Shown one piece after another: positions 3,630 through 54,229 of a DNA stretch of 64,000 nucleotides. The position numbers were made by a program, and so were the translations under genes. Origin of the DNA: Gordius sp. MW1. Its lineage: Eukaryota > Nematomorpha > Gordioida > Gordea > Gordiidae. The notes beneath the pieces are model-generated. The model ran no database searches and was not told where the DNA came from. It saw only the letters and a list, made by a program, of their open reading frames with translations. The stretch lies in contig OZ038529.1 of assembly GCA_964036665.1 (NCBI GenBank), positions 15,074,060 to 15,138,059 on the forward strand, in the 5' to 3' direction. Every line of letters begins with the position of its first letter. Position 1 is the stretch's first letter.

Positions 3630-3663
3630 GTGAGTGCTTAATTTTTCAAAAATGCAATATGCG

Positions 3664-3762: not shown

Positions 3763-3770
3763 GTTGAAAG

Positions 3771-14195: not shown

Positions 14196-14538
14196 CGTGA
14201 TTGCTTAATTTTTCAAAAATGCACTATGCTTCATGATTTAAACTAATAGTTTTCTGATTCTGATAAATTTTTACTTTTTATCATCGAAACCACGTCTGAA
14301 AGCGACAACTTTCATCGGATGCATACGGTTGAAAGAAAAATATGTGAAAAATTTTGAGGTAAAAATATTTATTTTTTTCGATTCTATGTGAAAGAGCATG
14401 AAAAAATATATATAAGTAAGCCAATTTGAGAATCCTATTATCCTCGATTTACTTCCGAAAAGAGGTTTTAAGCTGCGAGATCTATCATTTTGACAAAAGA
14501 CAACGTTTTATTGTTGCGATTAGTTTGTTGTATCGCAA

Positions 14539-20023: not shown

Positions 20024-22071
20024 CGTGAGTGCTTAATTTTTCAAAAATGCATTATGCGATCATGATTTCAAAGTAATAGTTTTCTGATTGATAAATTTTT
20101 ACTTTTTATCATGGAAACCACGTCTGAAAATGACAACTTTCATCGGATGCATACGGTTGAAAGAAAAATATGTGAAAAATTTTGAGGTAAAAATATCTAT
20201 TTTTTTCGATTCTATGTGAAAGAGCATGAAAAAATATATATAAGTAAGCCAATTTGAAAATCCTATTATCCTCGATTTACTTCCGAAAAGAGGTTTTAAG
20301 CTGCGAGAACTATCATTTTGACAAAAGACAACGTTTTATTGTTGCGATGAGTTTGTTGTATCGCAACGTGAGTGCTTAATTTTTTGAAAACTGCTCTATG
20401 CGATTATGCTTTCAAAGTAATAGTTTTTAGATTCTGATAAATATTTACTTGGGATCATAGAAACCACGTCTGAAAACGACAACTTTCATCGGATGAATAC
20501 GGTTCAAAGAAAAATATGTGAAAAATTTTGAGGTAAAAATATTTTTTTTTTCGATTCTATGTGAAAGAGCATGAAAAAATATATTAAAGTAAGCCAATTT
20601 GAGAATCCTATTATCCTCGATTGACTTCCGAAAAGAGGTTTTAAGCTGCGAGAACTATCATTTTGACAAAAGACAACGTTTTATTGTTGCGATTAGTTTG
20701 TTGTATCGCAACGTGAGTGCTTAATTTTTCAAAAATGCAATATGCGATCATGATTTTAAAGTAATAGTTTTCTGATTCTGATAAATTTTTACTTTTTATT
20801 ATCGAAACCACGTCTGAAAACGACAACTTTCATCGGATGCATACGGTTGAAAGAAAAATATGTGAAAAATTTTGAGGTAAAAATATTTTTTTTTTCGATT
20901 CTATGTGAAAGAGCATGAAAAAATATATAAAAGTAAGCCAATTTGAGAATCCTATTATCCTCGATTTACTTCCGAAAAGAGGTTTTTAGCTGCGAGAACT
21001 ATCATTTTGACAAAAGACAACTTTTTATTGTTGCGATTAGTTTGTTGTATCGCAACGTGAGTGCTTAATTTTTGAAAATGGCTCTATGCGATCATGATTT
21101 CAAAGTAATAGTTTTAGATTCTGATAAATTTTTACTTTTTATCATCGAAACCACGTCTGAAAACGACAACCTTCATCGGATGCATACGGTTGAAAGAAAA
21201 ATATGTGAAAAATTTTTAGGTAAAAATATTTATTTTTTTCGATTCTATGTGAAAGAGCATGAAAAAATATATAAAAGTAAGCCAATTTGAGAATCCTATT
21301 ATCCTCGATTTACTTCCGAAAAGAGGTTTTAAGCTGCCAGAACTATCATTTTGACAAAAGACAACCTTTTATTGTTGCGATTAGTTTGTTGTATCGCAAC
21401 GTGAGTGCCTAATTTTTCAAAAATGCACTATGCGATCATGATTTTAAAGTAATAGTTTTCTGATTCTGATAAATTTTTACTTTTTATCATCAAAACCACG
21501 TGTGAAAACGACAACTTTCATCGGATGCATACGGTTGAAAGAAAAATATGTGAAAAATTTTGAGGTAAAAATATTTACTTTTTTTGATTCTATGTGAGAG
21601 GCTGAAAAAATATATAAAAGTAAGCCAATTTGAGAACCCAATAACCTCGATTTACTTCCGAAAAGAGGTTTTAAGCTGCCAGAACTATCATTTTGACAAA
21701 AGACAACGTTATTGTTGCGATTAGTTTGTTGTATCGCAACGTGAGTGCTTAATTTTTGAAAATGGCTCTATGCATGATTTCAAAGTAATAGTTTTAGATT
21801 CTGATAAATTTTTACTTGGGATCATAGAAACCACGTCTGAAAACGACAACTTTCATCGGATGATTACGGTTCAAAGAAAAATATGTGAAAAATTTTGTGG
21901 TAAAAATATTTATTTTTTTCGGTTCTATGTGAAAGAGCATGAAAAAATATATAAAAGTAAGCCAATCTTATTATCCTCGATTTACTTCCGAAAAAAGGTT
22001 TTAAGCTGCCAGAACTATCATTTTGACAAAAGACAACGTTTTATTGTTGCGATTAGTTTGTTGTATCGCAA
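20024..22071 (+). repeat. Six-monomer module, copy 5 of 5
   Basis: Same six types, 2048 bp, at an offset of 5486 bp from copy 4. Upstream it has the standard CACTATTCG monomer found before copies 1 to 3. Confidence 0.92.
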
Positions 22072-24821
22072 CGTGAGTGCTTAATTTTTGAAGATGGCTC
22101 TATGCGATCACGATTTCAAAGTAATAGTTTTTAGATTCTGATAAATTTTTACTTTTTATCATCGAAACCACGTCTGAAAACGACAACTTTCATCGGATGC
22201 ATACGGTTGAAAGAAAAATATGTGAAAAATTTTGAGGTAAAAATATTTATTTTTTTCGATTCTATGTGAAAGAGCATGAAAAAATATATATAAGTAAGCC
22301 AATTTGAGAATCCTATTATCCTCGATTTACTTCCGAAAAGAGGTTTTTAGCTGCCAGAACTATCATTTTGACAAAAGACAACGTTTTATTGTTGCGAATA
22401 GTTTGTTGTATCGCAACGTGAGTGCTTAATTTTTGAAAATGGCTCTATGCGATCATGATTTCAAAGTAATAGTTTTAGATTCTGATAAATTTTTACTTGG
22501 GATCATAGACACCACGTCTGAAAACGACAACTTTCATCGGATGAATACGGTTCAAAGAAAAATATGTGAAAAATTTTGTGGTAAAAATATTTATTTTTTT
22601 CGATTCTATGTGAAAGAGCATCAAAAAATATATAAAAGTAAGCCAATTTGAGAATCCTATTATCCTCGATTTACTTCCGAAAAGAGGTTTTAAGCTGCCA
22701 GAACTATCATTTTGACAAAAGACAACGTTTTATTGTTGCAAATAGTTTGTTGTATCGCAACGTGAGTGCTTAATTTTTCAAAAATGCACTATGCGATCAT
22801 GATTTTAAAGTAATAGTTTTCTGATTCTTATAAATTTTTACTTTTTATCATCAAAACCACGTCTGAAAACGACAACTTTCATCGGATGCATACGGTTGAA
22901 AGAAAAATATGTGAAAAATTTTGAGGTAAAAATATTTATTTTTTTCGATTCTATGTGAAAGAGCATAAAAAAATATATAAAAGTAAGCCAATTTGAGAAT
23001 CCTATTATCCTCGATTTACTTCCGAAAAGAGGTTTTAAGCTGCCAGAACTATCATTTTGACAAAAGACAACGTTTTATTGTTGCGATTAGTTTGTTGTAT
23101 CGCAACGTAAGTGCTTAATTTTTAAAAAATGCACTATGCGATCATGATTTTAAAGTAATAGTTTTCTGATTTTAATAAATTTTTACTTTTTATCATCGAA
23201 ACCACGTCTGAAAACGACAACTTTCATCGGATGCATACGGTTGAAAGAAAAATATGTGAAAAATTTTGAGGTAAAAATATTTATTTTTTTCGATTCTATG
23301 TGAAAGAGTATAAAAAAATATATAAAAGTAAGCCAATTTGAGAACCCTATTATCCTCGATTTACTTCCGAAAAGAGGTTTTAAGCTGCCAGAACTATCAT
23401 TTTGACAAAAGACAACGTTTTATTGCGATTAGTTTGTTGTATCGCAACGTGATTGCTTAATTTTTCAAAAATGCACTATGCTTCATGATTTAAAGTAATA
23501 GTTTTCTGATTCTGATAAATTTTTACTTTTTATCATCGAAACCACGTCTGAAAGCGACAACTTTCATCGGATGCATACGGTTGAAAGAAAAATATGTGAA
23601 AAATTTTGAGGTAAAAATATGTATTTTTTTCGATTCTATGTGAAAGAGCATGAAAAAATATATAAAATTAAGCCAATTTGAGAATTCTATTATCCTCGAT
23701 TTACTTCCGAAATAAGGTTTTAAGCTGCCAGAACCATCATTTTGACAAAAGACAACGTTTTATTGTTGCGATTAGTTTGTTGTATCGCAACGTGAGTGCT
23801 TAATTTTTGAAAATAACTCTATGCGATCATGATTTCAAAGTAATAGTTTTTAGATTCTGATAAATTTTTACTTTTTATCATCGAAACCACGTCTGAAAAC
23901 GACAACTTTCATCGGATGCATACGGTTGAAAGTAAAATATGTGAAAATTTTTGAGGTAAAAATATTTATTTTTTTCGATTCTATGTGAGACCATGAAAAA
24001 ATATATAAAAGTAAGCCAATTTGAGAATCCTATTATCCTCGATTTACTTCAGAAAAGAGGTTTTTAGCTGCGAGAACTATCATTTTGACAAAAGACAACG
24101 TTTTATTGTTGGGATTAGTTTGTTGTATCGCAACGTGAGTGCTTAATTTTTGAAAATGGCTCTATGCGATCATGATTTCAAAGTAATAGTTTTCTGATTC
24201 TCATAAATTTATACTTTTTATCATCAAAACCACGTCTGAAAACGACAACTTTCATCGGATACATACGGTTGAAAGAAAAATATGTGAAAATTTTTGACGT
24301 AAAAATATTTATTTTTTTCGATTCTATGTGAGACCATGAAAAAATATATAAAAGTAAGCCAATTTGAGAATCCTATTATCCTCGATTTACTTCAGAAAAG
24401 AGGTTTTAAGCTGCCAGAACTATCATTTTGACAAAAGACAACGTTTTATTGTTGCGATTAGTTTGTTGTATCGCAACGTAAGTGCTTAATTTTTAAAAAA
24501 TGCACTATGCGATCATGATTTTAAAGTAATAGTTTTCTGATTCTGATAAATTTTTACTTTTTATCATCGAAACCACGTCTGAAAACGACAACTTTCATCG
24601 GATGCATACGGTTGAAAGAAAAATATGTGAAAAATTTTGAGGTAAAAATATTTATTTTTTTCGATTCTATGTGAAAGAGCATAAAAAAATATATAAAAGT
24701 AAGCCAATTTGAGAATCCTATTATCCTCGATTTACTTCCGAAAAGAGGTTTTAAGCTGCCAGAACTATCATTTTGACAAAAGACAACGTTTTATTGTTGC
24801 GATTAGTTTGTTGTATCGCAA
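20024..24821 (+). repeat. 14-monomer block, second copy
   Basis: Partner of 14539-19335. Private differences include CAACTTTTTATTG near 21020, GATCACGATTTC near 22107, GTTGGGATTAG near 24110 and GAGTATAAAAAA near 23307. These are few over about 4.8 kb and imply a recent duplication. The block ends where the next monomer (24822) differs from its expected partner (19336). Confidence 0.92.
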
Positions 24822-27225
24822 CGTGAGTGCTTAATTTTTCAAAAATGCACTATGCGATCATGATTTTAAAGTAATAGTTTTCTGATTCTTATAAATTTTT
24901 ACTTTTTATCATCAAAACCACGTCTGAAAACGACAACTTTCATCGGATGCATACGGTTGAAAGAAAAATATGTGAAAAATTTTGAGGTAAATATATGTAT
25001 TTTTTTCGATTCTATGTGAAAGAGCATGAAAAAATATATAAAAGTAAGCCAATTTGAGAATCCTATTATCCTCGATTTACTTCCGAAAAGAGGTTTTTAG
25101 CTGCGAGAACTATCATTTTGACAAAGACAACGTTTTATTGTTGCGATTAGTTTGTTGTATCGCAACGTGAGTTCTTAATTTTTAAAAATGGCTCTATGCG
25201 ATTATGATTCCAAAGTAATAGTTTTCTGATTCTCATAAGTTTTTACTTTTTATCATCAAAACCACGTCTGAAAACGACAACTTTCATCGGATGCATACGG
25301 TTGATAGAAAAATATGTGAAAATTTTTGAGGTAAAAATATTTATTTTTTTCGATTCTATGTGAGACCATGAAAAAATGTATAAAAGTAAGCTAATTTGAG
25401 AATCCTATTATCCTCGATTTATTTCGGAAAAGAGGTTTTAAGCTGCCAGAACTATCATTTTGACAAAAGACCGTTTTATTGTTGCGATTAGTTTGTTGTA
25501 TCGCAACGTGAGTGCTTAATTTTTGAAAATGGCTGTATGCGATTATGATTTCAAAGTAATAGTTTTTAGATTCTGATAAATTTTTACTTTTTATCATCGA
25601 AACCACGTCTGAAAACGACAACTTTCATCGGATGAATACGGTTGAAAGAAATATATGTGAAAAATTTTGAGGTAAAAATATTTATTTTTTTCGATTCTAT
25701 GTGAAAGAGCATAAAAAAATATATAAAAGTAAGCCAATTTGAGAATCCTATTATCCTCGATTTACTTCCGAAAAGAGGTTTTAAGCTGCCAGAACTATCA
25801 TTTTGACAAAAGACAACGTTTTATTGTTGCGATTAGTTTGTTGTATCGCAACGTGAGTGCTTATTTCAAAAATGTGACTATGCGATCATGATTTTAAAGT
25901 AATAGTTTTCTGATTCTGATAAATTTTTACTTTTTATCATCGAAACCACGTCTGAAAACGACAACTTTCATCGGATGCATACGGTTGAAAGAAAAATATG
26001 TGAAAAATTTTGAGGTAAAAATATTTATTTTTTTCGATTCTATGTGAAAGAGCATAAAAAAATATATAAAAGTAAGCCAATTTGAGAATTCTATTATCCT
26101 CGATTTACTTCCGAAAAGAGGTTTTAAGCTGCCAGAACTATCATTTTGACAAAAGACAACGTTTTATTGTTGCGATTAGTTTGTTGTATCGCAACGTGAG
26201 TGCTTAATTTTTGAAAATGGCTGTATGCGATTATGATTTCAAAGTAATAGTTTTAGATTCTGGTAAATTTTTACTTTTTATCATCGAAACCACGTCTGAA
26301 AACGACAACTTTCATCGGATGAATACGGTTGAAAGAAATATATGTGAAAAATTTTGAGGTAAAAATATTTATTTTTTTCGATTCTATGTGAAAGAGCATA
26401 AAAAAATATATAAAAGTAAGCCAATTTGAGAATCCTATTATCCTCGATTTACTTCCGAAAAGAGGTTTTAAGCTGCCAGAACTATCATTTTGACAAAAGA
26501 CAACGTTTTATTGTTGCGATTAGTTTGTTGTATCGCAACGTGAGTGCTTATTTCAAAAATGTGACTATGCGATCATGATTTTAAAGTAATAGTTTTCTGA
26601 TTCTGATAAATTTTTACTTTTTATCATCGAAACCACGTCTGAAAACGACAACTTTCATCGGATGCATACGGTTGAAAGAAAAATATGTGAAAAATTTTGA
26701 GGTAAAAATATTTATTTTTTTCGATTCTATGTGAAAGAGCATAAAAAAATATATAAAAGTAAGCCAATTTGAGAATTCTATTATCCTCGATTTACTTCCG
26801 AAAAGAGGTTTTAAGCTGCCAGAACTATCATTTTGACAAAAGACAACGTTTTATTGTTGCGATTAGTTTGTTGTATCGCAACGTGAGTGCTTAATTTTTG
26901 AAAATGGCTGTATGCGATTATGATTTCAAAGTAATAGTTTTAGATTCTGGTAAATTTTTACTTTTTATCATCGAAACCACGTCTGAAAACGACAACTTTC
27001 ATCGGATGCATACGGTTGAAAGAAAAATATGTGAAAAATTTTGAGGTAAAAATATTTATTTTTTTCGATTCTATGTGAAAGAGCATAAAAAAATATATAA
27101 AAGTAAGCCAATTTGAGAATTCTATTATCCTCGATTTACTTCCGAAAAGAGGTTTTAAGCTGCCAGAACTATCATTTTGACAAAAGACAACGTTTTATTG
27201 TTGCGATTAGTTTGTTGTATCGCAA
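24822..27225 (+). repeat. Block duplicated at about 28921-30978
   Basis: Monomers at 24822, 25166, 25507, 25852, 26195 and 26539 match 28921, 29265, 29608, 29953, 30296 and 30640 at an offset of 4099-4101 bp. Shared marks include GACAAAGACAACG, GATTCTCATAAGT, AAATGTATAAAAG, TTCGGAAAAGAGG and AAATGTGACTATG. The copy at 25467 lost AAC from AAGACAACG. The partner at 30640 switches after AAATGTGACTATGCG to the body of the 27226 type, so it is a chimera that skips one monomer. Confidence 0.88.
25852..27225 (+). repeat. Two-monomer HOR, 687 bp, two copies
   Basis: Monomers 25852 and 26195 recur as 26539 and 26882, exactly 687 bp later. The first of each pair begins GTGCTTATTTCAAAAATGTGAC (5 bp shorter head) and the second AAATGGCTGTATGCG. 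A further copy of the second type follows at 27226. The same dimer appears again at 29953-30639, carried by the 4.1-kb duplication. Confidence 0.9.
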
Positions 27226-27566
27226 CGTGAGTGCTTTATTTTTGAAAATGGCTGTATGCGATTATGATTTCAAAGTAATAGTTTTAGATTCTGGTAAATT
27301 TTTACTTTTTATCATCGAAACCACGTCTGAAAACGACAACTTTTATCGGATGCATACGGTTGAAAGAAAAATATGTGAAAAATTTTGAGGTAAAAATATT
27401 TATTTTTTTCGATTCTATGTGAAAGAGCATAAAAAAATATATAAAAGTAAGCCAATTTGAGAATCCTATTATCCTCGATTTACTTCCGAAAAGAGGTTTT
27501 AAGCTGCCAGAACTATCATTTTGACAAAAGACAACGTTTTATTGCGATTAGTTTGTTGTATCGCAA

Positions 27567-27886
27567 CGTGAGTGCTTAATTTTTCAAAAAAGTAATAGTT
27601 TTCTGATTCTGATAAATTTTTACTTTTTATCATCGAAACCACGTCTGAAAGCGACAACTTTCATCGGATGCATACGGTTGAAAGAAAAATATGTGAAAAA
27701 TTTTGAGGTAAAAATATGTATTTTTTTCGATTCTATGTGAAAGAGCATGAAAAAATATATAAAAGTAAGCCAATTTGAGAATCCTATTATCCTCGATTTA
27801 CTTCCGAAAAAGGTTTTAAGCTGCCAGAACTATCATTTTGACAAAAGACAACGTTTTATTGTTGCGATTAGTTTGTTGTATCGCAA
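27567..27886 (+). repeat. Shortened monomer (320 bp)
   Basis: TTTTTCAAAAAAGTAATAG near 27581 replaces the normal head. About 25 bp between the two A runs, including the ATCATGAT palindrome, are missing. The related monomer at 30979 retains the region as TATGCTTCATGATTTA. Confidence 0.9.
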
Positions 27887-30800
27887 CGTGAGTGCTTAAT
27901 TTTTAAAAATGGCTCTATGCGATTATGATTTCAAAGTAATAGTTTTTAGATTCTGATAAATTTTTACTTTTTATCATCGAAACCACGTCAGAAAACGACA
28001 ACTTTCATCGGATGCATACGGTTGAAAGAAAAATATGTGAAAAATTTTGAGGTAAAAATATGTATTTTTTTCGATTCTATGTGAAAGAGCATGAAAAAAT
28101 ATATAAAAGTAAGCCAATTTGAGAATCCTATTATCCTCGATTTACTTCCGAAAAAAGGTTTTAAGCTGCCAGAACTATCATTTTGACAAAAGACAACGTT
28201 TTATTGTTGCGATTAGTTTGTTGTATCGCAACGTGAGTGCTTAATTTTTGAAAATGGCGCTATGCGATCATGATTTCAAAGTAATAGTTTTAGATTCTGG
28301 TAAATTTTTACTTGGGATCATAGAAACCACGTCTTAAAACGACAACTTTCATCGGATGCATACGGTTGAAAGAAAAATATGTGAAAAATTTTGAGGTAAA
28401 AATATTTATTTTTTTCGATTCTATGTGAAAGAGCATGAAAAAATATATATAAGTAAGCCAATTTGAGAATCCTATTATCCTCGATTTACTTCCGAAAAGA
28501 GGTTTTTAGCTGCCAGAACTATCATTTTGACAAAAGACAACGTTTTATTGTTGCGATTAGTTTGTTGTATCGCAACGTAAGTGCTTAATTTTTAAAAAAT
28601 GCACTATGCGATCATGATTTTAAAGTAATAGTTTTCTGATTCTGATAAATTTTTACTTTTTATCATCGAAACCACGTCTGAAAACGACAACTTTCATCGG
28701 ATGCATACGGTTGAAAGAAAAATTTGTGAAAAATTTCGAGGTAAAAACATTTATTTTTTTCGATTCTATGTGAAAGAGCATGAAAAAATATATATAAGTA
28801 AGCCAATTTGAGAATCCTATCATATTCGATTGACTTCCGAAAAGAGGTTTTAAGCTGCGAGAACTATCATTTTGACAAAAGACAACGTTTTATTGTTGCG
28901 ATTAGTTTGTTGTATCGCAACGTGAGTGCTTAATTTTTCAAAAATGCACTATGCGATCATGATTTTAAAGTAATAGTTTTCTGATTCTTATAAATTTTTA
29001 CTTTTTATCATCAAAACCACGTCTGAAAACGACAACTTTCATCGGATGCATACGGTTGAAAGAAAAATATGTGAAAAATTTTGAGGTAAAAATATGTATT
29101 TTTTTCGATTCTATGTGAAAGAGCATGAAAAAATATATAAAAGTAAGCCAATTTGAGAATCCTATTATCCTCGATTTACTTCCGAAAAGAGGTTTTTAGC
29201 TGCGAGAACTATCATTTTGACAAAGACAACGTTTTATTGTTGCGATTAGTTTGTTGTATCGCAACGTGAGTTCTTAATTTTTAAAAATGGCTCTATGCGA
29301 TTATGATTCCAAAGTAATAGTTTTCTGATTCTCATAAGTTTTTACTTTTTATCATCAAAACCACGTCTGAAAACGACAACTTTCATCGGATGCATACGGT
29401 TGAAAGAAAAATATGTGAAAATTTTTGAGGTAAAAATATTTATTTTTTTCGATTCTATGTGAGACCATGAAAAAATGTATAAAAGTAAGCCAATTTGAGA
29501 ATCCTATTATCATCGATTTATTTCGGAAAAGAGGTTTTAAGCTGCCAGAACTATCATTTTGACAAAAGACAACGTTTTATTGTTGCGATTAGTTTGTTGT
29601 ATCGCAACGTGAGTGCTTAATTTTTGAAAATGGCTGTATGCGATTATGATTTCAAAGTAATAGTTTTTAGATTCTGATAAATTTTTACTTTTTATCATCG
29701 AAACCACGTCTGAAAACGACAACTTTCATCGGATGAATACGGTTGAAAGAAATATATGTGAAAAATTTTGAGGTAAAAATATTTATTTTTTTCGATTCTA
29801 TGTGAAAGAGCATAAAAAAATATATAAAAGTAAGCCAATTTGAGAATCCTATTATCCTCGATTTACTTCCGAAAAGAGGTTTTAAGCTGCCAGAACTATC
29901 ATTTTGACAAAAGACAACGTTTTATTGTTGCGATTAGTTTGTTGTATCGCAACGTGAGTGCTTATTTCAAAAATGTGACTATGCGATCATGATTTTAAAG
30001 TAATAGTTTTCTGATTCTGATAAATTTTTACTTTTTATCATCGAAACCACGTCTGAAAACGACAACTTTCATCGGATGCATACGGTTGAAAGAAAAATAT
30101 GTGAAAAATTTTGAGGTAAAAATATTTATTTTTTTCGATTCTATGTAAAAGAGCATAAAAAAATATATAAAAGTAAGCCAATTTGAGAATTCTATTATCC
30201 TCGATTTACTTCCGAAAAGAGGTTTTAAGCTGCCAGAACTATCATTTTGACAAAAGACAACGTTTTATTGTTGCGATTAGTTTGTTGTATCGCAACGTGA
30301 GTGCTTAATTTTTGAAAATGGCTGTATGCGATTATGATTTCAAAGTAATAGTTTTAGATTCTGGTAAATTTTTACTTTTTATCATCGAAACCACGTCTGA
30401 AAACGACAACTTTCATCGGATGAATACGGTTGAAAGAAATATATGTGAAAAATTTTGAGGTAAAAATATTTATTTTTTTCGATTCTATGTGAAAGAGCAT
30501 AAAAAAATATATAAAAGTAAGCCAATTTGAGAATCCTATTATCCTCGATTTACTTCCGAAAAGAGGTTTTAAGCTGCCAGAACTATCATTTTGACAAAAG
30601 ACAACGTTTTATTGTTGCGATTAGTTTGTTGTATCGCAACGTGAGTGCTTATTTCAAAAATGTGACTATGCGATTATGATTTCAAAGTAATAGTTTTAGA
30701 TTCTGGTAAATTTTTACTTTTTATCATCGAAACCACGTCTGAAAACGACAACTTTTATCGGATGCATACGGTTGAAAGAAAAATATGTGAAAAATTTTGA

Positions 30801-31320
30801 GGTAAAAATATTTATTTTTTTCGATTCTATGTGAAAGAGCATAAAAAAATATATAAAAGTAAGCCAATTTGAGAATCCTATTATCCTCGATCTACTTCCG
30901 AAAAGAGGTTTTAAGCTGCCAGAACTATCATTTTGACAAAAGACAACGTTTTATTGCGATTAGTTTGTTGTATCGCAACGTGAGTGCTTAATTTTTCAAA
31001 AATGCACTATGCTTCATGATTTAAAGTAATAGTTTTCTGATTCTGATAAATTTTTACTTTTTATCATCGAAACCACGTCTGAAAGCGACAACTTTCATCG
31101 GATGCATACGGTTGAAAGAAAAATATGTGAAAAATTTTGAGGTAAAAATATGATTTTTTTCGATTCTATGTGAAAGAGCATGAAAAAATATATAAAAGTA
31201 AGCCAATTTGAGAATCCTATTATCCTCGATTTACTTCCGAAAAGAGGTTTTTAGCTGCGAGAACTATCATTTTGACAAAAGACAACGTTTTATTGTTGCG
31301 ATTAGTTTGTTGTATCGCAA

Positions 31321-32720
31321 CGTGAGTGCTTAATTTTTAAAAATGGCTCTATGCGATTATGATTTCAAAGTAATAGTTTGTAGATTCTGATAAATTTTTA
31401 CTTTTTATCATCGAAACCACGTCTGAAAACGACAACTTTCATCGGATGCATACGGTTGAAAGAAAAATATGTGAAAAATTTTAAGGTAAAAATAGGTATT
31501 TTTTTCGATTCTATGTGAAAGAGCATGAAAAAATATATAAAAGTAAGCCAATTTGAGAATCCTATTATCCTCGATTTACTTCCGAAAAAAGGTTTTTAGC
31601 TGCGAGAACTATCATTTTGACAAAAGACAACGTTCTATTGTTGCGATTAGTTTGTTGTATCGCAACGTGAGTGCTTAATTTTTGAAAATGGCTCTATGCG
31701 ATCATGATTTCAAAGTAATAGTTTTTAGATTCTGATAAATTTTTACTTTTTATCATCGAAACAACGTCTGAAAACGACAACTTTCATCAGATGCATACGG
31801 TTGAAAGAAAAATATGTGAAAAATTTTTAGGTAAAAATATTTATTTTTTTCGATTCTATGTGAAAGAGCACGAAAAAATATATATAGCCAATTTGAGAAT
31901 CCTATTATCCTCGATATACTTCCGAAAAGAGGTTTTTAGCTGCGAGAACTATCATTTTGACAAAAGACAACGTTTTATTGTTGCGATTAGTTTGTTGTAT
32001 CGCAACGTGAGTGCTTAATTTTTGAAAATGGCTCTATGCGATCATGATTTCAAAGTAATAGTTTTAGATTCTGATAAATTTTTACTTGGGATCATAGAAA
32101 CCACGTCTGAAAATCACAACTTTCATCGGATGAATACGGTTCAAAGAAAAATATGTGAAAAATTTTGTGGTAAAAATATATGTGAAAGAGCATGAAAAAA
32201 TTTATAAAAGTAAGCCAATTTGAGAATCCAATTATCCTCGATTGACTTCCGAAAACAGGTTTTAAGCTGCGAGAACTATCATTTTGACAAAAGCCAACGT
32301 TTTATTGTTGCAATTAGTTTGTTGTATCGCAACGTGAGTGCTGAATTTTTGAAAACTGCTCTATGCGATCATGATTTCAAAGTAATAGTTTTCAGATTCT
32401 GATAAATTTTTACTTGGGATCATAGAAACCACGTCTGAAAACGACAACTTTCATCGGATGAATACGGTTCAAAGAAAAATATGTGAAAAATTTTGAGGTA
32501 AAAAAATTTATTTTTTTCGATTCTATGTGAAAGAGCGTAAAAAAATATATAAAAGTAAGCCAATTTGAGAATCCTATTATCCTCTATTGATTTGCGCAAA
32601 GAGGTTTTAAGCAGCGAGAACTATCATTTTGACAAAAGACAACGTTTTATTGTTGCGATTAGTTTGTTGTATCGCAACGTGAGTGCTTAATTTTTCAAAA
32701 ATTCATTATGCGATCATGAT
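31321..32720 (+). repeat. Divergent edge monomers before the inversion
   Basis: Monomers at 31321, 31666, 32006, 32333 and 32678 carry many private changes: AATAGGTATTTTTTT (31491), ACGTTCTATTG (31630), GAAACAACGTC (31758), ATATATAGCC (31880), AATCACAACTT (32113), an 18-bp deletion at TAAAAATATATGTG (32171), AAAGCCAACG (32290), GCAATTAG (32310) and CCTCTATTGATTTGCGC (32580). I could not assign them to a HOR copy. Edge decay of this sort is expected where unequal exchange no longer homogenises monomers. Confidence 0.75.
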
Positions 32721-32730
32721 AAAAATAAAT
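32713..32730. other. Inversion junction between the two satellite arms
   Basis: The forward monomer that begins at 32678 runs normally to GCGATCATGAT, ending at 32720. The next base starts a reverse-strand monomer at AAAAATAAATATTTTTACC, the complement of the GGTAAAAATATTTATTTTT segment. There is no spacer and at most one base of microhomology. The forward side stops directly after the 8-bp palindrome ATCATGAT (32713-32720). The two sides break at different monomer phases and carry different private variants, so this is not a mirror-image foldback. Simple read-foldback artefact is therefore unlikely, although assembly joining of two arrays cannot be excluded from sequence alone. Confidence 0.95.
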
Positions 32731-34849
32731 ATTTTTACCTCAAAATTTTTCACATATTTTTCTTTGAACCGTATTCATCCGATGAAAGATGTCGTTTTCA
32801 GACGTGGTTTCTATGATCCCAAGTAAAAATTTTAAAGAATCTGAAAACTATTACTTTGAAATCATGATCGCATAGAGCCATTTTCATAAATTAAGCACTC
32901 ACGTTGCGATACAACAAACTAATCGCAACAATAAAACGTTGTCTTTTGTCAAAATGATAGTTCTCGCAGTTTAAACCTCTTTTCGGAAGTCAATCGAGGA
33001 TAATAGGATTCTCAAATTGGGTTACTTTTATATATTTTTTCATGCTCTTTCACATAGAATCGAAAAAAAGAAATATTTTTACCTCGAAATTTTTCACATA
33101 TTTTTCTTTGAACCGTATTCATCCGATGAAAGTTGTCGTTTTCAGACGTGGTTTCGATGATAAAAAGTAAAAATTTATCAGAATCAGAAAACTATTACTT
33201 TAAAATCATGATCGCATAGTGCATTTTTGAAAAATTAAGCACTCACGTTGCGATACAACAAACTAATCGCAACAATAAAACGTTGTCTTTTGTCAAAATG
33301 ATAGTTCTCGCAGCTTAAAACCTCTTTTCGGAAGTCAATCGAGGATAATAGGATTCTCAAATTGGCTTACTTTTATATATTTTTTCATGCTCTTTCAGAA
33401 TCGAAAAAAATAAATATTTTTACCTCAAAATTTTTCACATATTTTTCTTTCAACCGTATGCATTCGATGAAAGTTGTCGTTTTCAGACGTGGTTTCGATG
33501 ATAAAAAGTAAAAAATTTTCAGAATCAGAAAACTATTACTTTAAAATCATGATCGCATAGTGCATTTTTGAAAAATTAAGCACTCACGTTGCGATACAAC
33601 AAACTAATCGCAACAATAAAACGTTGTCTTTTGTCAAAATGATAGTTCTCGCAGCTTAAAACCTCTTTTCGGAAGTCAATCGAGGATTATAGGATTCTCA
33701 AATTGGCTTACTTTTATATATTTTTTCATGCTCTTTCACATAGAATCGAAAAAAATAAATATTTTTACATCAAAATTTTTCACATATTTTTCTTTGAACC
33801 GTATTCATCCGATGAAAGTTGTCGTTTTCACACGTGGTTTCGATGATAAAAAGTAAAAATTTATCAGAATTAGAAAACTATTACTTTAAAATCATGATCG
33901 CATAGTGCATTTTTGAAAAATTCAGCACTCACTTTGCGATACAACAAACTAATCGCAACAATAAAACGTTGTCTTTTGTCAAAATGAATAGTTCTGGCAG
34001 CTTAAAACCTCTTTTCGGAAGTAAATCGAGGATAATAGGATTCTCAAACTGGCTTACTTTTATATATTTTTTCATGCTCTTTCACATAGAATCGAAAAAA
34101 ATAAATATTTTTACCTCAAAATTTTTCACATATTTTTCTTTGAACCGTATTCATCCGATGAAAGATGTCGTAATCAGACGTGGTTTCTATGATCCCAAGT
34201 AAAAATTTATCAGAATCTGAAAACTATTACTTTGAAATCATGATCGCATAGAGCCATTTTCAAAAATTTAGCACTCACGTTGCGATACAACAAACTAATC
34301 GCAACAATAAAACGTTGTCTTTTGTCAAAATGATAGTTCTCGCAGCTTAAAACCTCTTTTCGGAAGTCAATCGAGGATAATAGGATTCTCAAATTGGCTT
34401 ACTTTTATATATTTTTTGATGCTCTTTCACATAGAATCGAAAAAAATAAATATTTTTACCTCGAAATTTTTCACATATTTTTCTTTGAACCGTATGCATC
34501 CGATGAAAGCTGTCGTTTTCAGACGTGGTTTCGATGATAAAAAGTAAAAATTTATCAGAATCAGAAAACTATTACTTTAAAATCATGATCGCATAGTGCA
34601 TTTTTGAAAAATTAAGCACTCACGTTGCGATACAACAAACTAATCGCAACAATAAAACGTTGTCTTTTGTCAAAATGATAGTTCTCGCAGCTTAAAACCT
34701 CTTTTCGGAAGTGAATCGAGGATAATAGGATTCTGAAATTAGCTTACTTTTATATATTTTTTCATGCTCTTTCACATAGAATCGAAAAAAATTAATATTT
34801 TTACCTCAAAATTTTTCACATATTTTTCTTTCAAAGTATGCATCCGATG

Positions 34850-36069
34850 AAAGTTGTCGTTTTCAGACGTCGTTTCGATGATAAAAAGTAAAAATTTATC
34901 AGAATTAGAAAACTATTACTTTAAAATCATGATCGCATAGTGCATTTTTGAAAAATTCAGCACTCACGTTGGGATACAACAAACTAATCGCACAATAAAA
35001 CGTTGTCTTTTGTCAAAATGAATAGTTCTGGCAGCTTAAAACCTCTTTTCGAAGTCAATCGAGGATAATAGGATTCTCAAATTGGCTTACTTTTATATAT
35101 TTTTTGATGCTCTTTCACATAGAATCGAAAAAAATAAATATTTTTACCTCGAAATTTTTCACATATTTTTCTTTGAACCGTATGCATCCGATGAAAGTTG
35201 TCGTTTTCAGACGTGGTTTCGATGATAAAAAGTAAAAATTTATAGAATCAGAAAACTATTACTTTAAAATCATGATCGCATAGTGCATTTTTGAAAAATT
35301 AAGCACTCACGTTGCGATACAACAAACTTATCGCAACAATAAAACGTTGTCTTTTGTCAAAATGATAGTTCTCGCAGCTTAAAACCTCTTTTCGGAAGTC
35401 AATCGAGGATAATAGGATTCTCAAATTGGCTTACTTTTATATATTTTTTCATGCTCTTTCACATAGAATCGAAAAAAATAAATATTTTTACCTCAAAATT
35501 TTTCACATATTTTTCTTTCAACCGTATGCATCCGATGAAAGTTGTCGTTTTCAGAAGTGGTTTCTATGATCCCAAGTAAAAATTAGAATCTGAAAACTAT
35601 TACTTTGAAATCATGATCGCATAGAGCTATTTTCATAAATTGAGCACTCACGTTGCGATACAACAAACTAATCGCAACAATAAAACGTTGTCTTTTGTCA
35701 AAATGATAGTTCTCGCAGCTTAAAACCTCTTTTCGGAAGTCAATCGAGGATAATAGGATTCTCAAATTGGCTTACTTTTATATATTTTTTCATGCTCTTT
35801 CACATAGAATCGAAAAAAATAAATATTTTTACCTCAAAATTTTTCACATATTTTTCTTTCAACCGTATGCATCCGATGAAAGTTGTCGTTTTCAGACGTC
35901 GTTTCGATGATAAAAAGTAAAAATTTATCAGAATTAGAAAACTATTACTTTAAAATCATGATCGCATAGTGCATTTTTGAAAAATTCAGCACTCACGTTG
36001 GGATACAACAAACTAATCGCACAATAAAACGTTGTCTTTTGTCAAAATGAATAGTTCTGGCAGCTTAAA
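34850..36069 (-). repeat. Local three-monomer repeat (1029 bp)
   Basis: The segment 34850-35040 recurs at 35879-36069. Shared rare states are CAGACGTCGTTTC, TCAGAATTAGAAAAC, ATTCAGCACTCACG, GTTGGGATACAAC and CGCACAATAAAAC, three monomers apart (landmarks 34966 and 35995). The second copy keeps CGGAAG where the first has CGAAG. Confidence 0.85.
35090..35780 (-). repeat. Two-monomer block repeated 8252 bp away
   Basis: Two monomers ending at landmarks 35309 and 35650 match those at 43561 and 43902. Both pairs carry TTTATAGAATCAG, CAGAAGTGGTTTC, AAAAATTAGAATCTG and CATAAATTGAGCAC, with a constant offset of 8252 bp (24 monomers). The intervening monomers do not show the same constant offset, so the pair has moved separately or the rest was rearranged. 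Confidence 0.85.
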
Positions 36070-36686
36070 ACCTCTTTTCGGAAGTCAATCGAGGATAATA
36101 GGATTCTCAAATTGGCTTACTTTGATATATTTTTTCATGCTCTTTCACATAAAATCGAAAAAAATAAATATTTTTACCTCAAAATTTTTCACATATTTAT
36201 CTTTGAACCGTATTCATCCGATGAAAGATGTCGTATTCAGACGTGGTTTCTATGATCCCAAGTAAAAATTTATCAGAATCTGAAAACTATTACTTTGAAA
36301 TCATGATCGCATAGAGCCATTTTCAAAAATTAAGCACTCACGTTGCGATACAACAAACTAATCGCAACAATAAAACGTTGTCTTTTGTCAAAATGATAGT
36401 TCTCGCAGCTTAAAACCTCTTTTCGGAAGTCAATCGATGATAATAGGATTCTCAAATTGGCTTACTTTTATATATTTTTTCATGCTCTTTCACATAGAAT
36501 CGAAAAAAATAAATATTTTTACCTCAAAATTTTTCTCATATTTTTCTTTGAACCGTATGCATCCGATGAAAGTTGTCGTTTTCAGACGTGGTTTCGATGA
36601 TAAAAAGTAAAAATTTATCAGAATCAGAAAACTATTACTTTAAAATCATGATCGCATAGTGCATTTTTGGAAAATTAAGCACTCAC

Positions 36687-36706
36687 GTTGCGATACAAAT
36701 CGCAAC
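36687..36706. repeat. Inverted repeat with shortened 4-nt loop
   Basis: In this right-arm monomer 7 bp of the loop are deleted, leaving GTTGCGAT, loop ACAA, ATCGCAAC. Both stem halves are intact and the loop shrinks from 11 to 4 nt, giving a compact perfect hairpin. The deletion accounts for the short 338-bp spacing to the next monomer. Confidence 0.9.
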
Positions 36707-37399
36707 AATAAAACGTTGTCTTTTGTCAAAATGATAGTTCTCGCAGCTTAAAACCTCTTTTCGGAAGTCAATCAAGGATAATAGGATTCTAAAATTGGCT
36801 TACTTTTATATATTTTTTCATGCTCTTTCACATAGAATCGAAAAAAATAAATATTTTTAACTCAAAATTTTTCACATATTTTTCTTTCAACCGTATGCAT
36901 CCGATGAAAGTTGTCGTTTTCAGACGTGGTTTCGATGATAAAAAGTAAAAATTTATCAGAATCAGAAAACTATTACTTTAAAATCATGATCGCATAGTGC
37001 ATTTTTGAAAAATTAAGCACTCACGTTGCGATACAACAAACTAATCGCAACAATAAAACGTTTTCTTTTGTCAAAATGATAGTTCTCGCAGCTTAAAACC
37101 TCTTTTCGGAAGTCAATCGAGGATAATAGGATTCTAAAATTGGCTTACTTTTATATATTTTTTCATGCTCTTTCACATAGAATCGAAAAAAATAAATATT
37201 TTTACCTCAAAATTTTTCACATATTTTTCTTTCAACCGTATGCATCCGATGAAAGTTGTCGTTTTCAGACGTGGTTTCGATGATAAAAAGTAAAAATTTA
37301 TCAGAATCAGAAAACTATTACTTTAAAATCATGATCGCATAGTGCATTTTTGAAAAATTAAGCACTCACGTTGCGATACAACAAACTAATCGCAACAAT

Positions 37400-38520
37400 A
37401 AAACGTTGTCTTTTGTCAAAATGATAGTTCTCGCAGCTTAAAACCTCTTTTCGGAAGTCAATCGAGGATAATAGGATTCTAAAATTGGCTTACTTTTATA
37501 TATTTTTTCATGCTCTTTCACATAGAATCGAAAAAAATAAATATTTTTACCTCAAAATTTTTCACATATTTTTCTTTCAACCGTATGCATCCGATGAAAG
37601 TTGTCGTTTTCAGACGTGGTTTCGATGATAAAAAGTAAAAATTTATCAGAATCAGAAAACTATTACTTTAAAATCATGATCGCATAGTGCATTTTTGGAA
37701 AATTAAGCACTCACGCTGCGATACAACAAACTAATCGCAACAATATAACGTTGTCTTTTGTCAAAATGATAGTTCTCGCAGCTTAAAACCTCTTTTCGGA
37801 AGTCAATCGAGGATAATAGGATTCTCAAATTGGCTTACTTTTATATATTTTTTCATGCTCTTTCACATAGAATCGAAAAAAATAAATATTTTTACCTCAA
37901 AATTTTTCACATATTTTTCTTTGAACCGTATTCATCCGATGAAAGATGTCGTATTCAGACGTGGTTTCTATGATCCCAAGTAAAATTATCAGAATCTGAA
38001 AACTATTACTTTGAAATCATGATCGCATAGAGCCATTTTCAAAAATTAAGCACTCACGTTGCGATACAACAAACTTATCGCAACAATAAAACGTTGTCTT
38101 TTGTCAAAATGATAGTTCTCGCAGCTTAAAACCTCTTTTCGGAAGTCAATCGAGGATAATAGGATTCTCAAAATGTCTTACTTTTATATATTTTTTCATG
38201 CTCTTTCACATAGAATCGAAAAAAATAGATATTTTTACCTCGAAATTTTTCTCATATTTTTCTTTGAACCGTATGCATCCGATGAAAGTTGTCGTTTTCA
38301 GACGTGGTTTTGATGATAAAAAGAAAAAATTTATCAGAATCAGAAAACTATTACTTTAAAATCATGATCGCATAGTGCATTTTTGGAAAATTAAGCACTC
38401 ACGTTGCGATACAACAAACTAATCGCAACAATAAAACGTTGTCTTTTGTCAAAATGATAGTTCTCGCAGCTTAAAACCTCTTTTCGGAAGTCAATCGAGG
38501 ATAATAGGATTCTCAAATTG
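37400..38520 (-). repeat. Three-monomer block repeated 6879 bp away
   Basis: Landmarks 37713, 38056 and 38401 match 44592, 44935 and 45280 exactly 6879 bp away (20 monomers). Diagnostic states: CACGCTGCGAT with AATATAACG, CAAGTAAAATTATCAG, CTCAAAATGTCTTAC, AAAATAGATATT, GTGGTTTTGATG and AAAGAAAAAATT. The next monomer type (GTGGTATCGATG at 38651) has its partner one monomer later (45875), so one monomer was gained or lost there. Confidence 0.88.
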
Positions 38521-38959
38521 GCTTACTTTTATATATTTTTTCATGCTCTTTCACATAGAATCGAAAAAAATAAATATTTTTACCTCGAAATTTTTCTCAT
38601 ATTTTTCTTTGAACCGTATGCATCCGATGAAAGTTGTCGTTTTCAGACGTGGTATCGATGATAAAAAGTAAAAATTTATCAGAATCAGAAAACTATTACT
38701 TTAAAATCATGATCGCATAGTGCATTTTTGGAAAATTAAGCACTCACGTTGCGATACAACAAACTAATCGCAACAATAAAACGTTGTCTTTTGTCAAAAT
38801 GATAGTTCTCGCAGCTTAAAACCTCTTTTCGGAAGTCAATCGAGGATAATAGGATTCTCAAATTGGCTTACTTTTATATATTTTTTCATGCTCTTTCACA
38901 TAGAATCGAAATAAATAAATATTTTTACCTCAAAATTTTTCACATATTTTTCTTTCAAC

Positions 38960-39260
38960 CGTATGCATCCGATGAAAGTTGTCGCTTTCAGACGTGGTTT
39001 CGATGATAAAAAGTAAAAATTTATCAGAATCAGAAAACTATTACTTTAAATCATGAAGCATAGTGCATTTTTGAAAAATTAAGCAATCACGTTGCGATAC
39101 AACAAACTAATCGCAATAAAACGTTGTCTTTTGTCAAAATGATAGTTCTGGCAGCTTAAAACCTCTTTTCGGAAGTAAATCGAGGATAATAGGATTCTCA
39201 AATTGGCTTACTTTTATATATTTTTTTATGCTCTTTCACATAGAATCGAAAAAAATAAAT
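38960..39260 (-). repeat. Right-arm monomer of a rare left-arm type
   Basis: Read on the - strand, this monomer shares four rare linked states with left-arm monomers at 14196, 17962 and 23448: CTGAAAGCGACAAC, TATGCTTCATGATTTA, CGTGATTGC and the 4-bp-short CGTTTTATTGCGATTAG. It also shares GAGCATAAAAAAA and CTGCCAGAACT on its upstream side. Beyond about one monomer the match fails on both flanks. Few other right-arm monomers have any of these states. Confidence 0.85.
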
Positions 39261-40806
39261 ATTTTTACCTCAAAATTTTTCACATATTTTTCTTTCAACC
39301 GTATGCATCCGATGAAAGTTGTCGTTTTCAGACGTGGTTTCGATGATAAAAAGTAAAAATTTATCAGAATTAGAAAACTATTACTTTAAAATCATGATCG
39401 CATAGTGCATTTTTGAAAAATTAAGCACTCACGTTGCGATACAACAAACTAATCGCAACAATAAAACGTTGTCTTTTGTCAAAATGATAGTTCTCGCAGC
39501 TTAAAACCTCTTTTCGGAAGTCAATCGAGGATAATAGGATTCTCAAATTGGCTTACTTTTATATATTTTTTCATGCTCTTTCACATAGAATCGAAAAAAA
39601 TAAATATTTTTACCTCAAAATTTTCACATATTTTTCTTTGAACCGTATGCATCCGATGAAAGTTGTCGTTTTCAGACGTGGTTTCGATGATAAAAAGTAA
39701 AAATTTATCAGAATCAGAAAACTATTACTTCAAAATCATGATCGCATAGTGCATTTTTTAAAAATTAAGCACTCACGTTGCGATACAACAAACTAATCGC
39801 AACAATAAAACGTTGTCTGTCAAAATGATAGTTTTCGCAGCTTAAAACCTCTTTTCGGAAGTCAATCGAGGATAATAGGATTCTCAAATTGGCTTACTTT
39901 TATATATTTTTTTATGCTCTTTCACATAGAATCGAAAAAAATAAATATTTTTACCTCGAAATTTCTCTCATATTTTTCTTTGAACCGTATGCATCCGATG
40001 AAAGTTGTCGTTTTCAGACGTGGTTTCGATGATAAAAAGAAAAAATTTATCAGAATCAGAAAACTATTACTTTAAAATCATGATCGCATAGTGCATTTTT
40101 GGAAAATTAAGCACTCACGTTGCGATACAACAAACTTATCGCAACAATAAAACGTTGTCTTTTGTCAAAATGATAGTTCTCGCAGCTTAAAACCTCTTTT
40201 CGGAAGTCAATCGAGGATAATAGGATTCTCAAATTGGCTTACTTTTATATATTTTTTCATGCTCTTTCACATAGAATCGAAAAAAATAAATATTTTTACC
40301 TCAAAATTTTTCACATATTTTTCTTTGAACCGTATTCATCCGATGAAAGATGTCGTATTCAGACGTGGTTTCTATGATCCCAAGTAAACATTTATCAGAA
40401 TCTGAAAACTATTACTTTGAAATCATGATCGCATAGTGCATTTTTGGAAAATTAAGCACTCACGTTGCGATACAACAAACTAATCGCAACAATAAAACGT
40501 TGTCTTTTGTCAAAATGATAGTTCTCGCAGCTTAAAACCTCTTTTCGGAAGTCAATCGAGGATAATAGGATTCTCAAATTAGCTTACTTTTATATATTTT
40601 TTCATGCTCTTTCACATAGAATCGAAAAAAATAAATATTTTTACCTCGAAATTTTTCTCATATTTTTCTTTGAACCGTATGCATCCGATGAAAGTTGTCG
40701 TTTTCAGACGTGGTTTCGATGATAAAAAGTAAAAATTTATCAGAATCAGAAAACTATTACTTTAAAATCATGATCGCATAGTGCATTTTTGGAAAATTAA
40801 GCACTA
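39260..40806 (-). repeat. Five-monomer HOR, copy 1 of 4
   Basis: Order on the + strand: GAATTAGAAAAC; CTCAAAATTTTCAC with TTTTTTAAAAATTAAG and CGTTGTCTGTCAAAATG; CGAAATTTCTCTC with AAAGAAAAAATT; AAGTAAACATTTATC with ATAGTGCAT; and a final CTCGAAATTTTTCTC monomer. Landmarks are 39431, 39775, 40117, 40462 and 40807. The last carries CACTAACG. Offset to copy 2 is 2410 bp. Confidence 0.88.
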
Positions 40807-41495
40807 ACGTTGCGATACAACAAACTAATCGCAACAATAAAACGTTGTCTTTTGTCAAAATGATAGTTCTCGCAGCTTAAAACCTCTTTTCGGAAGTCAA
40901 TCGAGGATAATAGGATTCTCAAATTGGCTTACTTTTATATATTTTTTCATCTCTTTCACATAGAATCGAAAAAAATAAATATTTTTACCTCAAAATTTTT
41001 CACATATTTTTCTTTGAACCGTATTCATCCGATGAAAGATGTCGTATTCAGACGTGGTTTCTATGATCCCAAGTAAAAATTTATCAGAATCTGAAAACTA
41101 TTACTTTGAAATCATGATCGCATAGAGCCATTTTCAAAAATTAAGCACTCACGTTGCGATACAACAAACTAATCGCAACAATAAAACGTTGTCTTTTGTC
41201 AAAATGATAGTTCTCGTAGCTTAAAACCTCTTTTCGGAAGTCAATCGAGGATAATAGGATTCTCAAATTGGCTTACTTTTATATATTTTTTCATGCTCTT
41301 TCACATAGAATCGAAAAAAATAAATATTTTTACCTCGAAATTTTTCTCATATTTTTCTTTGAACCGTATGCATCCGATGAAAGTTGTCGTTTTCAGACGT
41401 GGTTTCGATGATAAAAAGTAAAAATTTATCAGAATCAGAAAACTATTACTTTAAAATCATGATCGCATAGTGCATTTTTGGAAAATTAAGCACTC

Positions 41496-43216
41496 ACGTT
41501 GCGATACAACAAACTAATCGCAACAATAAAACGTTGTCTTTTGTCAAAATGATAGTTCTCGCAGCTTAAAACCTCTTTTCGGAAGTCAATCGAGCATAAT
41601 AGGATTCTCAAATTGGCTTACTTTTATATATTTTTTCATGCTCTTTCACATAGAATCGAAAAAAATAAATATTTTTACCTCAAAATTTTTCACATATTTT
41701 TCTTTCAACCGTATGCATCCGATGAAAGTTGTCGTTTTCAGACGTGGTTTCGATGATAAAAAGTAAAAATTTATCAGAATTAGAAAACTATTACTTTAAA
41801 ATCATGATCGCATAGTGCATTTTTGAAAAATTAAGCACTCACGTTGCGATACAACAAACTAATCGCAACAATAAAACGTTGTCTTTTGTCAAAATGATAG
41901 TTCTCGCAGCTTAAAACCTCTTTTCGGAAGTCAATCGAGGATAATAGGATTCTAAAATTGGCTTACTTTTATATATTTTTTCATGCTCTTTCACATAGAA
42001 TCGAAAAAAATAAATATTTTTACCTCAAAATTTTCACATATTTTTCTTTGAACCGTATGCATCCGATGAAAGTTGTCGTTTTCAGACGTGGTTTCGATGA
42101 TAAAAAGTAAAAATTTATCAGAATCAGAAAACTATTACTTCAAAATCATGATCGCATAGTGCATTTTTTAAAAATTAAGCACTCACGTTGCGATACAACA
42201 AACTAATCGCAACAATAAAACGTTGTCTGTCAAAATGATAGTTTTCGCAGCTTAAAACCTCTTTTCGGAAGTCAATCGAGGATAATAGGATTCTCAAATT
42301 GGCTTACTTTTATATATTTTTTTATGCTCTTTCACATAGAATCGAAAAAAATAAATATTTTTACCTCGAAATTTTTCTCATATTTTTCTTTGAACCGTAT
42401 GCATCCGATGAAAGTTGTCGTTTTCAGACGTGGTTTCGATGATAAAAAGAAAAAATTTATCAGAATCAGAAAACTATTACTTTAAAATCATGATCGCATA
42501 GTGCATTTTTGGAAAATTAAGCACTCACGTTGCGATACAACAAACTAATCGCAACAATAAAACGTTGTCTTTTGTCAAAATGATAGTTCTCGCAGCTTAA
42601 AACCTCTTTTCGGAAGTCAATCGAGGATAATAGGATTCTCAAATTGGCTTACTTTTATATATTTTTTCATGCTCTTTCACATAGAATCGAAAAAAATAAA
42701 TATTTTTACCTCAAAATTTTTCACATATTTTTCTTTGAACCGTATTCATCCGATGAAAGATGTCGTATTCAGACGTGGTTTCTATGATCCCAAGTAAACA
42801 TTTATCAGAATCTGAAAACTATTACTTTGAAATCATGATCGCATAGTGCATTTTTGGAAAATTAAGCACTCACGTTGCGATACAACAAACTAATCGCAAC
42901 AATAAAACGTTGTCTTTTGTCAAAATGATAGTTCTCGCAGCTTAAAACCTCTTTTCGGAAGTCAATCGAGGATAATAGGATTCTCAAATTGGCTTACTTT
43001 TATATATTTTTTCATGCTCTTTCACATAGAATCGAAAAAAATAAATATTTTTACCTCGAAATTTTTCTCATATTTTTCTTTGAACCGTATGCATCCGATG
43101 AAAGTTGTCGTTTTCAGACGTGGTTTCGATGATAAAAAGTAAAAATTTATCAGAATCAGAAAACTATTACTTTAAAATCATGATCGCATAGTGCATTTTT
43201 GAAAAATTAAGCACTC
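41496..43216 (-). repeat. Five-monomer HOR, copy 2 of 4
   Basis: Landmarks 41841, 42185, 42527, 42872 and 43217 repeat the order of copy 1, 2410 bp downstream. Two monomers of other types (landmarks 41151 and 41496) separate the copies, so they are dispersed within the array and not strictly tandem. Confidence 0.88.
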
Positions 43217-45280
43217 ACGTTGCGATACAACAAACTTATCGCAACAATAAAACGTTGTCTTTTGTCAAAATGATAGTTCTCGCAGCTTAAAACCTCTTTT
43301 CGGAAGTCAATCGAGGATAATAGGATTCTCAAATTGGCTTACTTTTATATATTTTTTCATGATCTTTCACATAGAATCGAAAAAAATAAATATTTTTACC
43401 TCAAAATTTTTCACATATTTTTCTTTGAACCGTATGCATCCGATGAAAGTTGTCGTTTTCAGACGTGGTTTCGATGATAAAAAGTAAAAATTTATAGAAT
43501 CAGAAAACTATTACTTTAAAATCATGATCGCATAGTGCATTTCTGAAAAATTAAGCACTCACGTTGCGATACAACAAACTTATCGCAACAATAAAACGTT
43601 GTCTTTTGTCAAAATGATAGTTCTCGCAGCTTAAAACCTCTTTTCGGAAGTCAATCGAGGATAATAGGATTCTCAAATTGGCTTACTTTTATATATTTTT
43701 TCATGATCTTTCACATAGAATCGAAAAAAATAAATATTTTTACCTCAAAATTTTTCACATATTTTTCTTTCAACCGTATGCATCCGATGAAAGTTGTCGT
43801 TTTCAGAAGTGGTTTCTATGATCCCAAGTAAAAATTAGAATCTGAAAACTATTACTTTGAAATCATGAACGCATAGAGCTATTTTCATAAATTGAGCACT
43901 CACGTTGCGATAAAACAAACTAATCGCAACAATAAAACGTTGTCTTTTGTCAAAATGATAGTTCTCGCAGCTTAAAACCTCTTTTCGGAAGTCAATCGAG
44001 GATAATAGGATTCTAAAATTGGCTTACTTTTATATATTTTTTCATGCTCTTTCACATAGAATCGAAAAAAATAAATATTTTTACCTCGAAATTTTTCACA
44101 TATTTTACTTTCAACCGTATGCATCCGATGAAAGTTGTCGTTTTCAGACGTGGTTTCGATGATAAAAAGTAAAAATTTATCAGAATCTGAAAACTATTAC
44201 ATTGAAATCATGATCGCATAGAGCCATTTTCAAAAATTAAGCACTCACGTTGCGATACAACAAACTAATCGCAACAATAAAACGTTGTCTTTTGTCAAAA
44301 TGATAGTTCTCGCAGCTTAAAACCTCTTTTCAGAAGTCAATCGAGGATAATAGGATTCTCAAATTGGCTTACTTTTATATATTTTTTCATGCTCTTTCAC
44401 ATAGAATCGAAATAAATAAATATTTTTACCTCAAAATTTTTCACATATTTTTCTTTCAACCGTATGCATCCGATGAAAGTTGTCGTTTTCAGACGTGGTT
44501 TCGATGATAAAAAGTAAAAATTTATCAGAATCAGAAAACTATTACTTTAAAATCATGATCGCATAGTGCATTTTTGGAAAATTAAGCACTCACGCTGCGA
44601 TACAACAAACTAATCGCAACAATATAACGTTGTCTTTTGTCAAAATGATAGTTCTCGCAGCTTAAAACCTCTTTTCGGAAGTCAATCGAGGATAATAGGA
44701 TTCTCAAATTGGCTTACTTTTATATATTTTTTCATGCTCTTTCACATAGAATCGAAAAAAATAAATATTTTTACCTCAAAATTTTTCACATATTTTTCTT
44801 TGAACCGTATTCATCCGATGAAAGATGTCGTATTCAGACGTGGTTTCTATGATCCCAAGTAAAATTATCAGAATCTGAAAACTATTACTTTGAAATCATG
44901 ATCGCATAGAGCCATTTTCAAAAATTAAGCACTCACGTTGCGATACAACAAACTTATCGCAACAATAAAACGTTGTCTTTTGTCAAAATGATAGTTCTCG
45001 CAGCTTAAAACCTCTTTTCGGAAGTCAATCGAAGATAATAGGATTCTCAAAATGTCTTACTTTTATATATTTTTTCATGCTCTTTCACATAGAATCGAAA
45101 AAAATAGATATTTTTACCTCGAAATTTTTCTCATATTTTTCTTTGAACCGTATGCATCCGATGAAAGTTGTCGTTTTCAGACGTGGTTTTGATGATAAAA
45201 AGAAAAAATTTATCAGAATCAGAAAACTATTACTTTAAAATCATGATCGCATAGTGCATTTTTGGAAAATTAAGCACTCA

Positions 45281-54225: not shown

Positions 54226-54229
54226 ACGT

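Follow-up and report, generated by a model that had tools for sequence, protein, structure and literature searches.

A head-on join between oppositely oriented blocks of a ~345-bp satellite array, one of several orientation switches in the assembly

The satellite array and its head-on join

The window, by which we mean the whole 64,000-nucleotide stretch of DNA that was analysed, corresponds to C3:15,074,060-15,138,059 and consists of a ~345-bp satellite throughout, save for a gap at positions 80-259. Its monomers lie in two arms of opposite orientation that meet near the middle of the window. The features of the locus were as follows.

1..32720, forward strand: forward arm of head-to-tail ~345-bp monomers, with 102 forward HMM hits and no reverse ones; extends past the window
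1897-32720: TRF array of the forward arm, period 344
32713..32720, no strand: palindrome ATCATGAT, the final 8 bases of the forward arm
32720..32721 (C3:15,106,779), no strand: head-on join, at which forward phase 52 directly adjoins reverse phase ~191-192
32721..64000, reverse strand: reverse arm of head-to-tail monomers, with 95 reverse HMM hits and no forward ones; extends past the window
32721-64000: TRF array of the reverse arm, period 345

A total of 197 hits to the monomer profile HMM were obtained in the window, and their strands changed completely at 32720, as an earlier sequence-only reading of this DNA had described. The scan was performed on eight pieces of the window, with one of the cuts at 32720, and the cuts halved some monomers, each of which then gave two hits. 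A scan in which the join was left uncut agreed with this result, giving a forward hit at 32669-32731 and a reverse hit at 32718-32912 that overlapped in A/T-rich sequence. The last bases of the forward arm (32710-32720) were GCGATCATGAT, reaching model position 52, and were followed by AAAAATAAATATTTTTACC, with which the reverse arm began near model position 191-192. There was no spacer, and inspection by eye indicated 0 bp of microhomology, in keeping with the earlier estimate of at most 1 bp. The join had also been placed directly after a palindrome, and ATCATGAT does end the forward arm; this palindrome is present at the same place of ordinary monomers as well, and GCGATCATGAT occurs 62 times in forward and 89 times in reverse orientation in the window. 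No N bases were detected in the window. A 30-base junction word was present as a single copy in the assembly at two or fewer mismatches, while a control pattern gave 0 matches. The consensus sequences of the two arms differed in 8 alignment columns. These results indicated that the same satellite family lies on both sides of the join in opposite orientation and hence that the locus is an orientation switch. A remnant of an older repeat type flanking the join was considered as well and dropped, as this type is interspersed in both arms.

The assembly comprises 211.8 Mb in 12 contigs, of which eight measure 21 to 37 Mb, one 1.4 Mb and one 14.8 kb and two are small; C3 accounts for 25.9 Mb. TTAGGG-type repeats were detected at the sampled start of six of the eight large contigs (C1, C2, C3, C5, C6 and C8) and, for C3, at both sampled ends. 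The 14.8-kb contig (C12), which is mitochondrial, encodes cytochrome b and ND1, as read from the translation. C12:1-4000 contains perfect inverted repeats, whose arms measure 53, 26 and 17 bp (0 in 20 shuffles), and a lengthy stretch of short tandem repeats lies near 3.7-3.95 kb of the same contig. Long perfect inverted repeats in mitochondrial DNA are described for Nematomorpha in PMC6649704. The telomere-like TTAGGG ends and the mitochondrial contig with its perfect inverted repeats fit an origin from Nematomorpha, and the animal is probably a horsehair worm.

The array on C3 extends for ~4.2 Mb, with bounds placed by samples at 12,650,800-12,675,000 and 16,845,349-16,860,000, and is interrupted at 12.98 Mb, where a sample without satellite (C3:12,980,000-12,980,699) marked an island of other DNA. 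Islands of this kind within arrays were also sampled at C8:15,616,000-15,616,119 and C5:14,110,000-14,110,099. Among the matches listed in a genome-wide search, the same ~345-bp satellite was matched on C2, C4, C5, C6, C7 and C8 and none of the matches was on C1. On each contig the matches listed are confined to a single broad region, so that a (peri)centromeric position of the satellite is conceivable. Two local variations were observed in the window. A 58-bp internal duplication makes ~401-bp units of some monomers at 1438-2298, and at 130-258 the satellite harbours a small dispersed element, putatively MITE-like, that has an inverted partner of ~72 bp. Relatives of this element with 91 to 95% similarity are scattered through the genome. 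Three copies, on C3 at 15.068, 15.0715 and 15.0741 Mb, are flanked by identical satellite sequence and look as if they had been co-amplified with the array.

Homogenisation within and between the arms

Mirror-positioned monomer pairs (n = 86) had a mean difference of 0.0610, compared to 0.0615 for all cross-arm pairs. The arms are therefore unmirrored monomer by monomer, as the sequence-only reading had stated, and both a foldback read and an inverted duplication were ruled out. Mean differences within the arms were 0.066 on the left and 0.044 on the right. Identical monomers (distance 0) recurred kilobases apart inside each arm, while in a comparison of 91 left and 86 right near-full monomers no near-identical copies were found across the join, the least cross-arm distance being 0.0087. 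Within its own arm, the closest copy of a monomer lay at a mean distance of 0.0097 (left monomers) or 0.0071 (right monomers), as against 0.0355 and 0.0304, respectively, for the closest copy across the join. Some monomers, 7.7% of the 91 left and 3.5% of the 86 right, had their closest copy in the opposite arm.

Nearest-copy distances within the same arm were then compared by distance from the join. In the left arm, the values were 0.0344 at less than 2.5 kb, 0.0141 at 2.5 to 5 kb, 0.0097 at 5 to 10 kb and 0.0047 at 10 to 20 kb, and the corresponding values in the right arm were 0.0166, 0.0087, 0.0041 and 0.0032. At 20 to 32 kb, where neighbours are cut off by the window edge, distances of 0.0072 (left) and 0.0096 (right) were obtained; the first seven monomers of the window were likewise raised (0.0203), neighbours being merely cut off there. 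The rank correlation between this decay and distance was weak (left, -0.26, p 0.012; right, -0.12, p 0.26). The seven left monomers adjoining the join had a nearest-copy distance above that of all 41 control cuts within the left arm, and 8 of 36 control cuts were equally high for the right edge. As control cuts reached the value in 0 of 41 cases on the left and 8 of 36 on the right, only the left edge is exceptional.

The kinship of the two arms also bears on whether a C2-like satellite block entered the C3 array by insertion or exchange, the join being the edge of that transfer. A 690-base query from the left arm had its best matches outside the window on C2, at up to 96%, and its C3 matches were all within the window (both among the matches listed). 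A 690-base query from the right arm matched C3 at 13.59-13.68, 15.11-15.25 and 16.25-16.83 Mb and, in addition, C6. However, C7, C6 and C5 also reached 95 to 96% with the left-arm query (39 candidates scored, among the matches listed), and in group averages the sampled C3 groups closest to most left-arm pieces were those at 13.7 and 13.5 Mb, and these groups are related to the right arm too. Judged by these similarities, an interchromosomal transfer is possible, but we give it a low probability.

Orientation switches elsewhere and the origin of the breakpoints

Other joins were located by sampling and bisection, and their microhomology was read by eye. Four were read in addition to that of the window, and one further head-on match was obtained with a genome-wide junction pattern.

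C3:12,921,101/102: join, forward phase 52 to reverse phase ~136, 0 bp of microhomology
C3:13,252,813: join, reverse phase 248 to forward phase 185, 1 bp
C8 near 15,540,476: join, forward phase ~165 to reverse phase ~26, ~2 bp within a run of A
C5 near 13,919,912: join, reverse phase 126 to forward phase ~324, 0 bp
C2:12,253,701-12,253,751: head-on match, in which forward sequence runs on past the palindrome

The five joins read, including that of the window, thus had 0 to 2 bp of microhomology and were distributed over three contigs. Their breakpoint phases differed, except for the forward end shared by the two head-on joins of C3. At least three switches are present on C3, and further switches were implied by the orientations of samples and search matches on C7 (forward at ~8.4-8.8 and 10.1-11.0 Mb, reverse at 9.2 and 9.65 Mb), C5 (forward at 14.06 Mb, reverse from 14.2 Mb), C8 (reverse at 13.84 Mb, forward at 15.17 Mb) and C2 (opposite strands at 8.48-8.66 and 9.10-9.19 Mb). 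The strand pattern had pointed to two telocentric arrays fused at one centre, an idea that was dropped in view of the further switches near 12.92 and 13.25 Mb. The forward flank of the 12.92-Mb join had most of its best matches in the reverse blocks at 12.98-13.25 and 15.47-15.70 Mb, indicating that both sides are alike near that join.

The order of orientations on C3 raised the question of a simple reciprocal inversion, in which a forward block from 13.25 to 15.107 Mb was flipped once with the join of the window and 13,252,813, the nearest switch of opposite sense on C3, as its breakpoints. All samples across both joins followed the order reverse, forward, reverse, and one pair of breakpoint phases was close (185 versus 191-192). 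The other pair was unlike (248 versus 52), such that a deletion would have to be assumed, and in a flank comparison corrected for group means the similarities were at the bottom of the lists for left flanks (-6.9) and right flanks (-8.4; in thousandths, with a residual standard deviation of 4.6). Later turnover could have erased the likeness of the flanks. With mismatched phases and flank pairs among the least alike, a reciprocal inversion with 13,252,813 was unsupported, and we consider it an unlikely origin; no other reciprocal partner was found on C3 at sampling intervals of up to 250 kb, below which smaller blocks may be missed. The term inversion used in the sequence-only reading therefore holds in the sense of an orientation switch but is unsupported in the strict reciprocal sense.

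Alternatively, a chimeric read or a false join could have brought together pieces of satellite that lie apart in the animal. Over 183 bases, reverse-arm sequence close to the join matches other sites on C3 at 99 to 100%, and alternative placements thus exist. An overlap-based assembler should not link non-homologous ends without a chimeric read, and the join has neither homology nor N bases; an overlap misassembly is an unlikely origin. The decay at the left edge, seen with none of 41 arbitrary cuts within the arm, and the occurrence of the same kind of join on three contigs also argue against an artefact of the assembly or library, for which we see only a small chance overall. The unmirrored arms, the unique join and the similar near-blunt joins elsewhere support the earlier proposal of a real rearrangement, although this support falls short of proof.

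The forward end shared by two joins suggested that breakage or template switching might recur after the palindrome GCGATYATGAT and be directed by sequence. Of the three head-on joins read completely, two end the forward arm at the same base, after this motif, and the partner phases and flanking variants of these two (the join of the window and the 12.92-Mb join) differ. An exact pair among three random ends has a chance of 0.009. The comparison was chosen after the fact, however, and the chance rises to 0.12 when ten ends are considered. Moreover, the C8 head-on join ends at phase ~165, and a genome-wide search with two junction patterns returned only the two known joins and the C2 match, which runs forward past the palindrome. 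Of two local positive controls, one gave 1 match with 0 expected by chance and the other matched 1 of 151 loci. The shared breakpoint is a lead only and is not shown to beat chance. That strand switches are partly sequence-directed, with head-on joins arising preferentially by a break or template switch at GCGATYATGAT, appears very improbable; if true, the monomer itself would promote the orientation mosaic of these putative centromeres.

A probable repair scar between two blocks and comparison with known systems

The join is probably the scar of a double-strand break repaired by end joining, which separates two independently homogenised blocks. Two broken satellite ends would have been ligated head to head without homology in a multi-megabase array, and the outcome would be two blocks of opposite orientation. 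Exchange between tandem copies would rarely cross such a head-on join, and each side would as a consequence be homogenised alone. This reading is favoured by the bluntness and single copy of the join, the unmirrored arms, the other near-blunt joins, the near-identical copies confined to single arms and the decay at the left edge. Against it stand the ordinary right edge, the weak rank correlations, the raised values at the far left end of the window, the monomers whose closest copy lies in the opposite arm and the failure to find a reciprocal breakpoint. We infer end joining as the mechanism and a join older than the local amplifications; no selected function is proposed for it. The join of the window is one of several switches in this genome. 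Head-on joins represent single-copy landmarks among otherwise interchangeable repeats and, if real, would provide several landmarks per array that could be traced between individuals to gauge how far a change of orientation blocks homogenisation.

Among the titles listed in searches for nematomorph genome papers, none dealt with this ~345-bp satellite. In the mouse T2T paper, satellite-made calls are described as filtered out (PMC12597820), and that account has no bearing on the join. Inversions inside primate alpha-satellite arrays are described for human centromere 1 (PMC9549924) and for orangutan chromosome 20 (3.2 Mb) and macaque chromosomes 5 and 10 (PMC11062924). As in the array on C3, blocks of opposite orientation, up to megabases in length, lie in one tandem array, although the repeat and the organism are unrelated to those here. 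In the account given in PMC9549924, the inversion of centromere 1 is the single such event in live human centromeres, compared to the at least three switches on C3.

The macro-dyad symmetries of Tribolium, as outlined in PMC13081366, share with the present arrays changes of monomer orientation and a location in putative (peri)centromeric regions. According to that account, the Tribolium subarrays range in length from kilobases to tens of kilobases and their inversion sites are conserved and occur in thousands of copies, whereas the switch reported here is single copy and the blocks read measure hundreds of kilobases or more. A conserved multi-copy inversion site of the Tribolium type was not found, the junction word occurring once in the assembly at up to two mismatches. 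In array a2 of the pea chromosome 6 centromere, a portion of one array is inverted, as here, and homogenisation is described as proceeding mainly within arrays or array parts, in likeness to the two arms of the window; the pea system differs in being a plant metapolycentromere (PMC10027222). Orientation switches in satellite arrays are already known from primates, pea and Tribolium, and the join of the window is a further case, ordinary as a single join, in a genome in which the number of switches is somewhat unusual.
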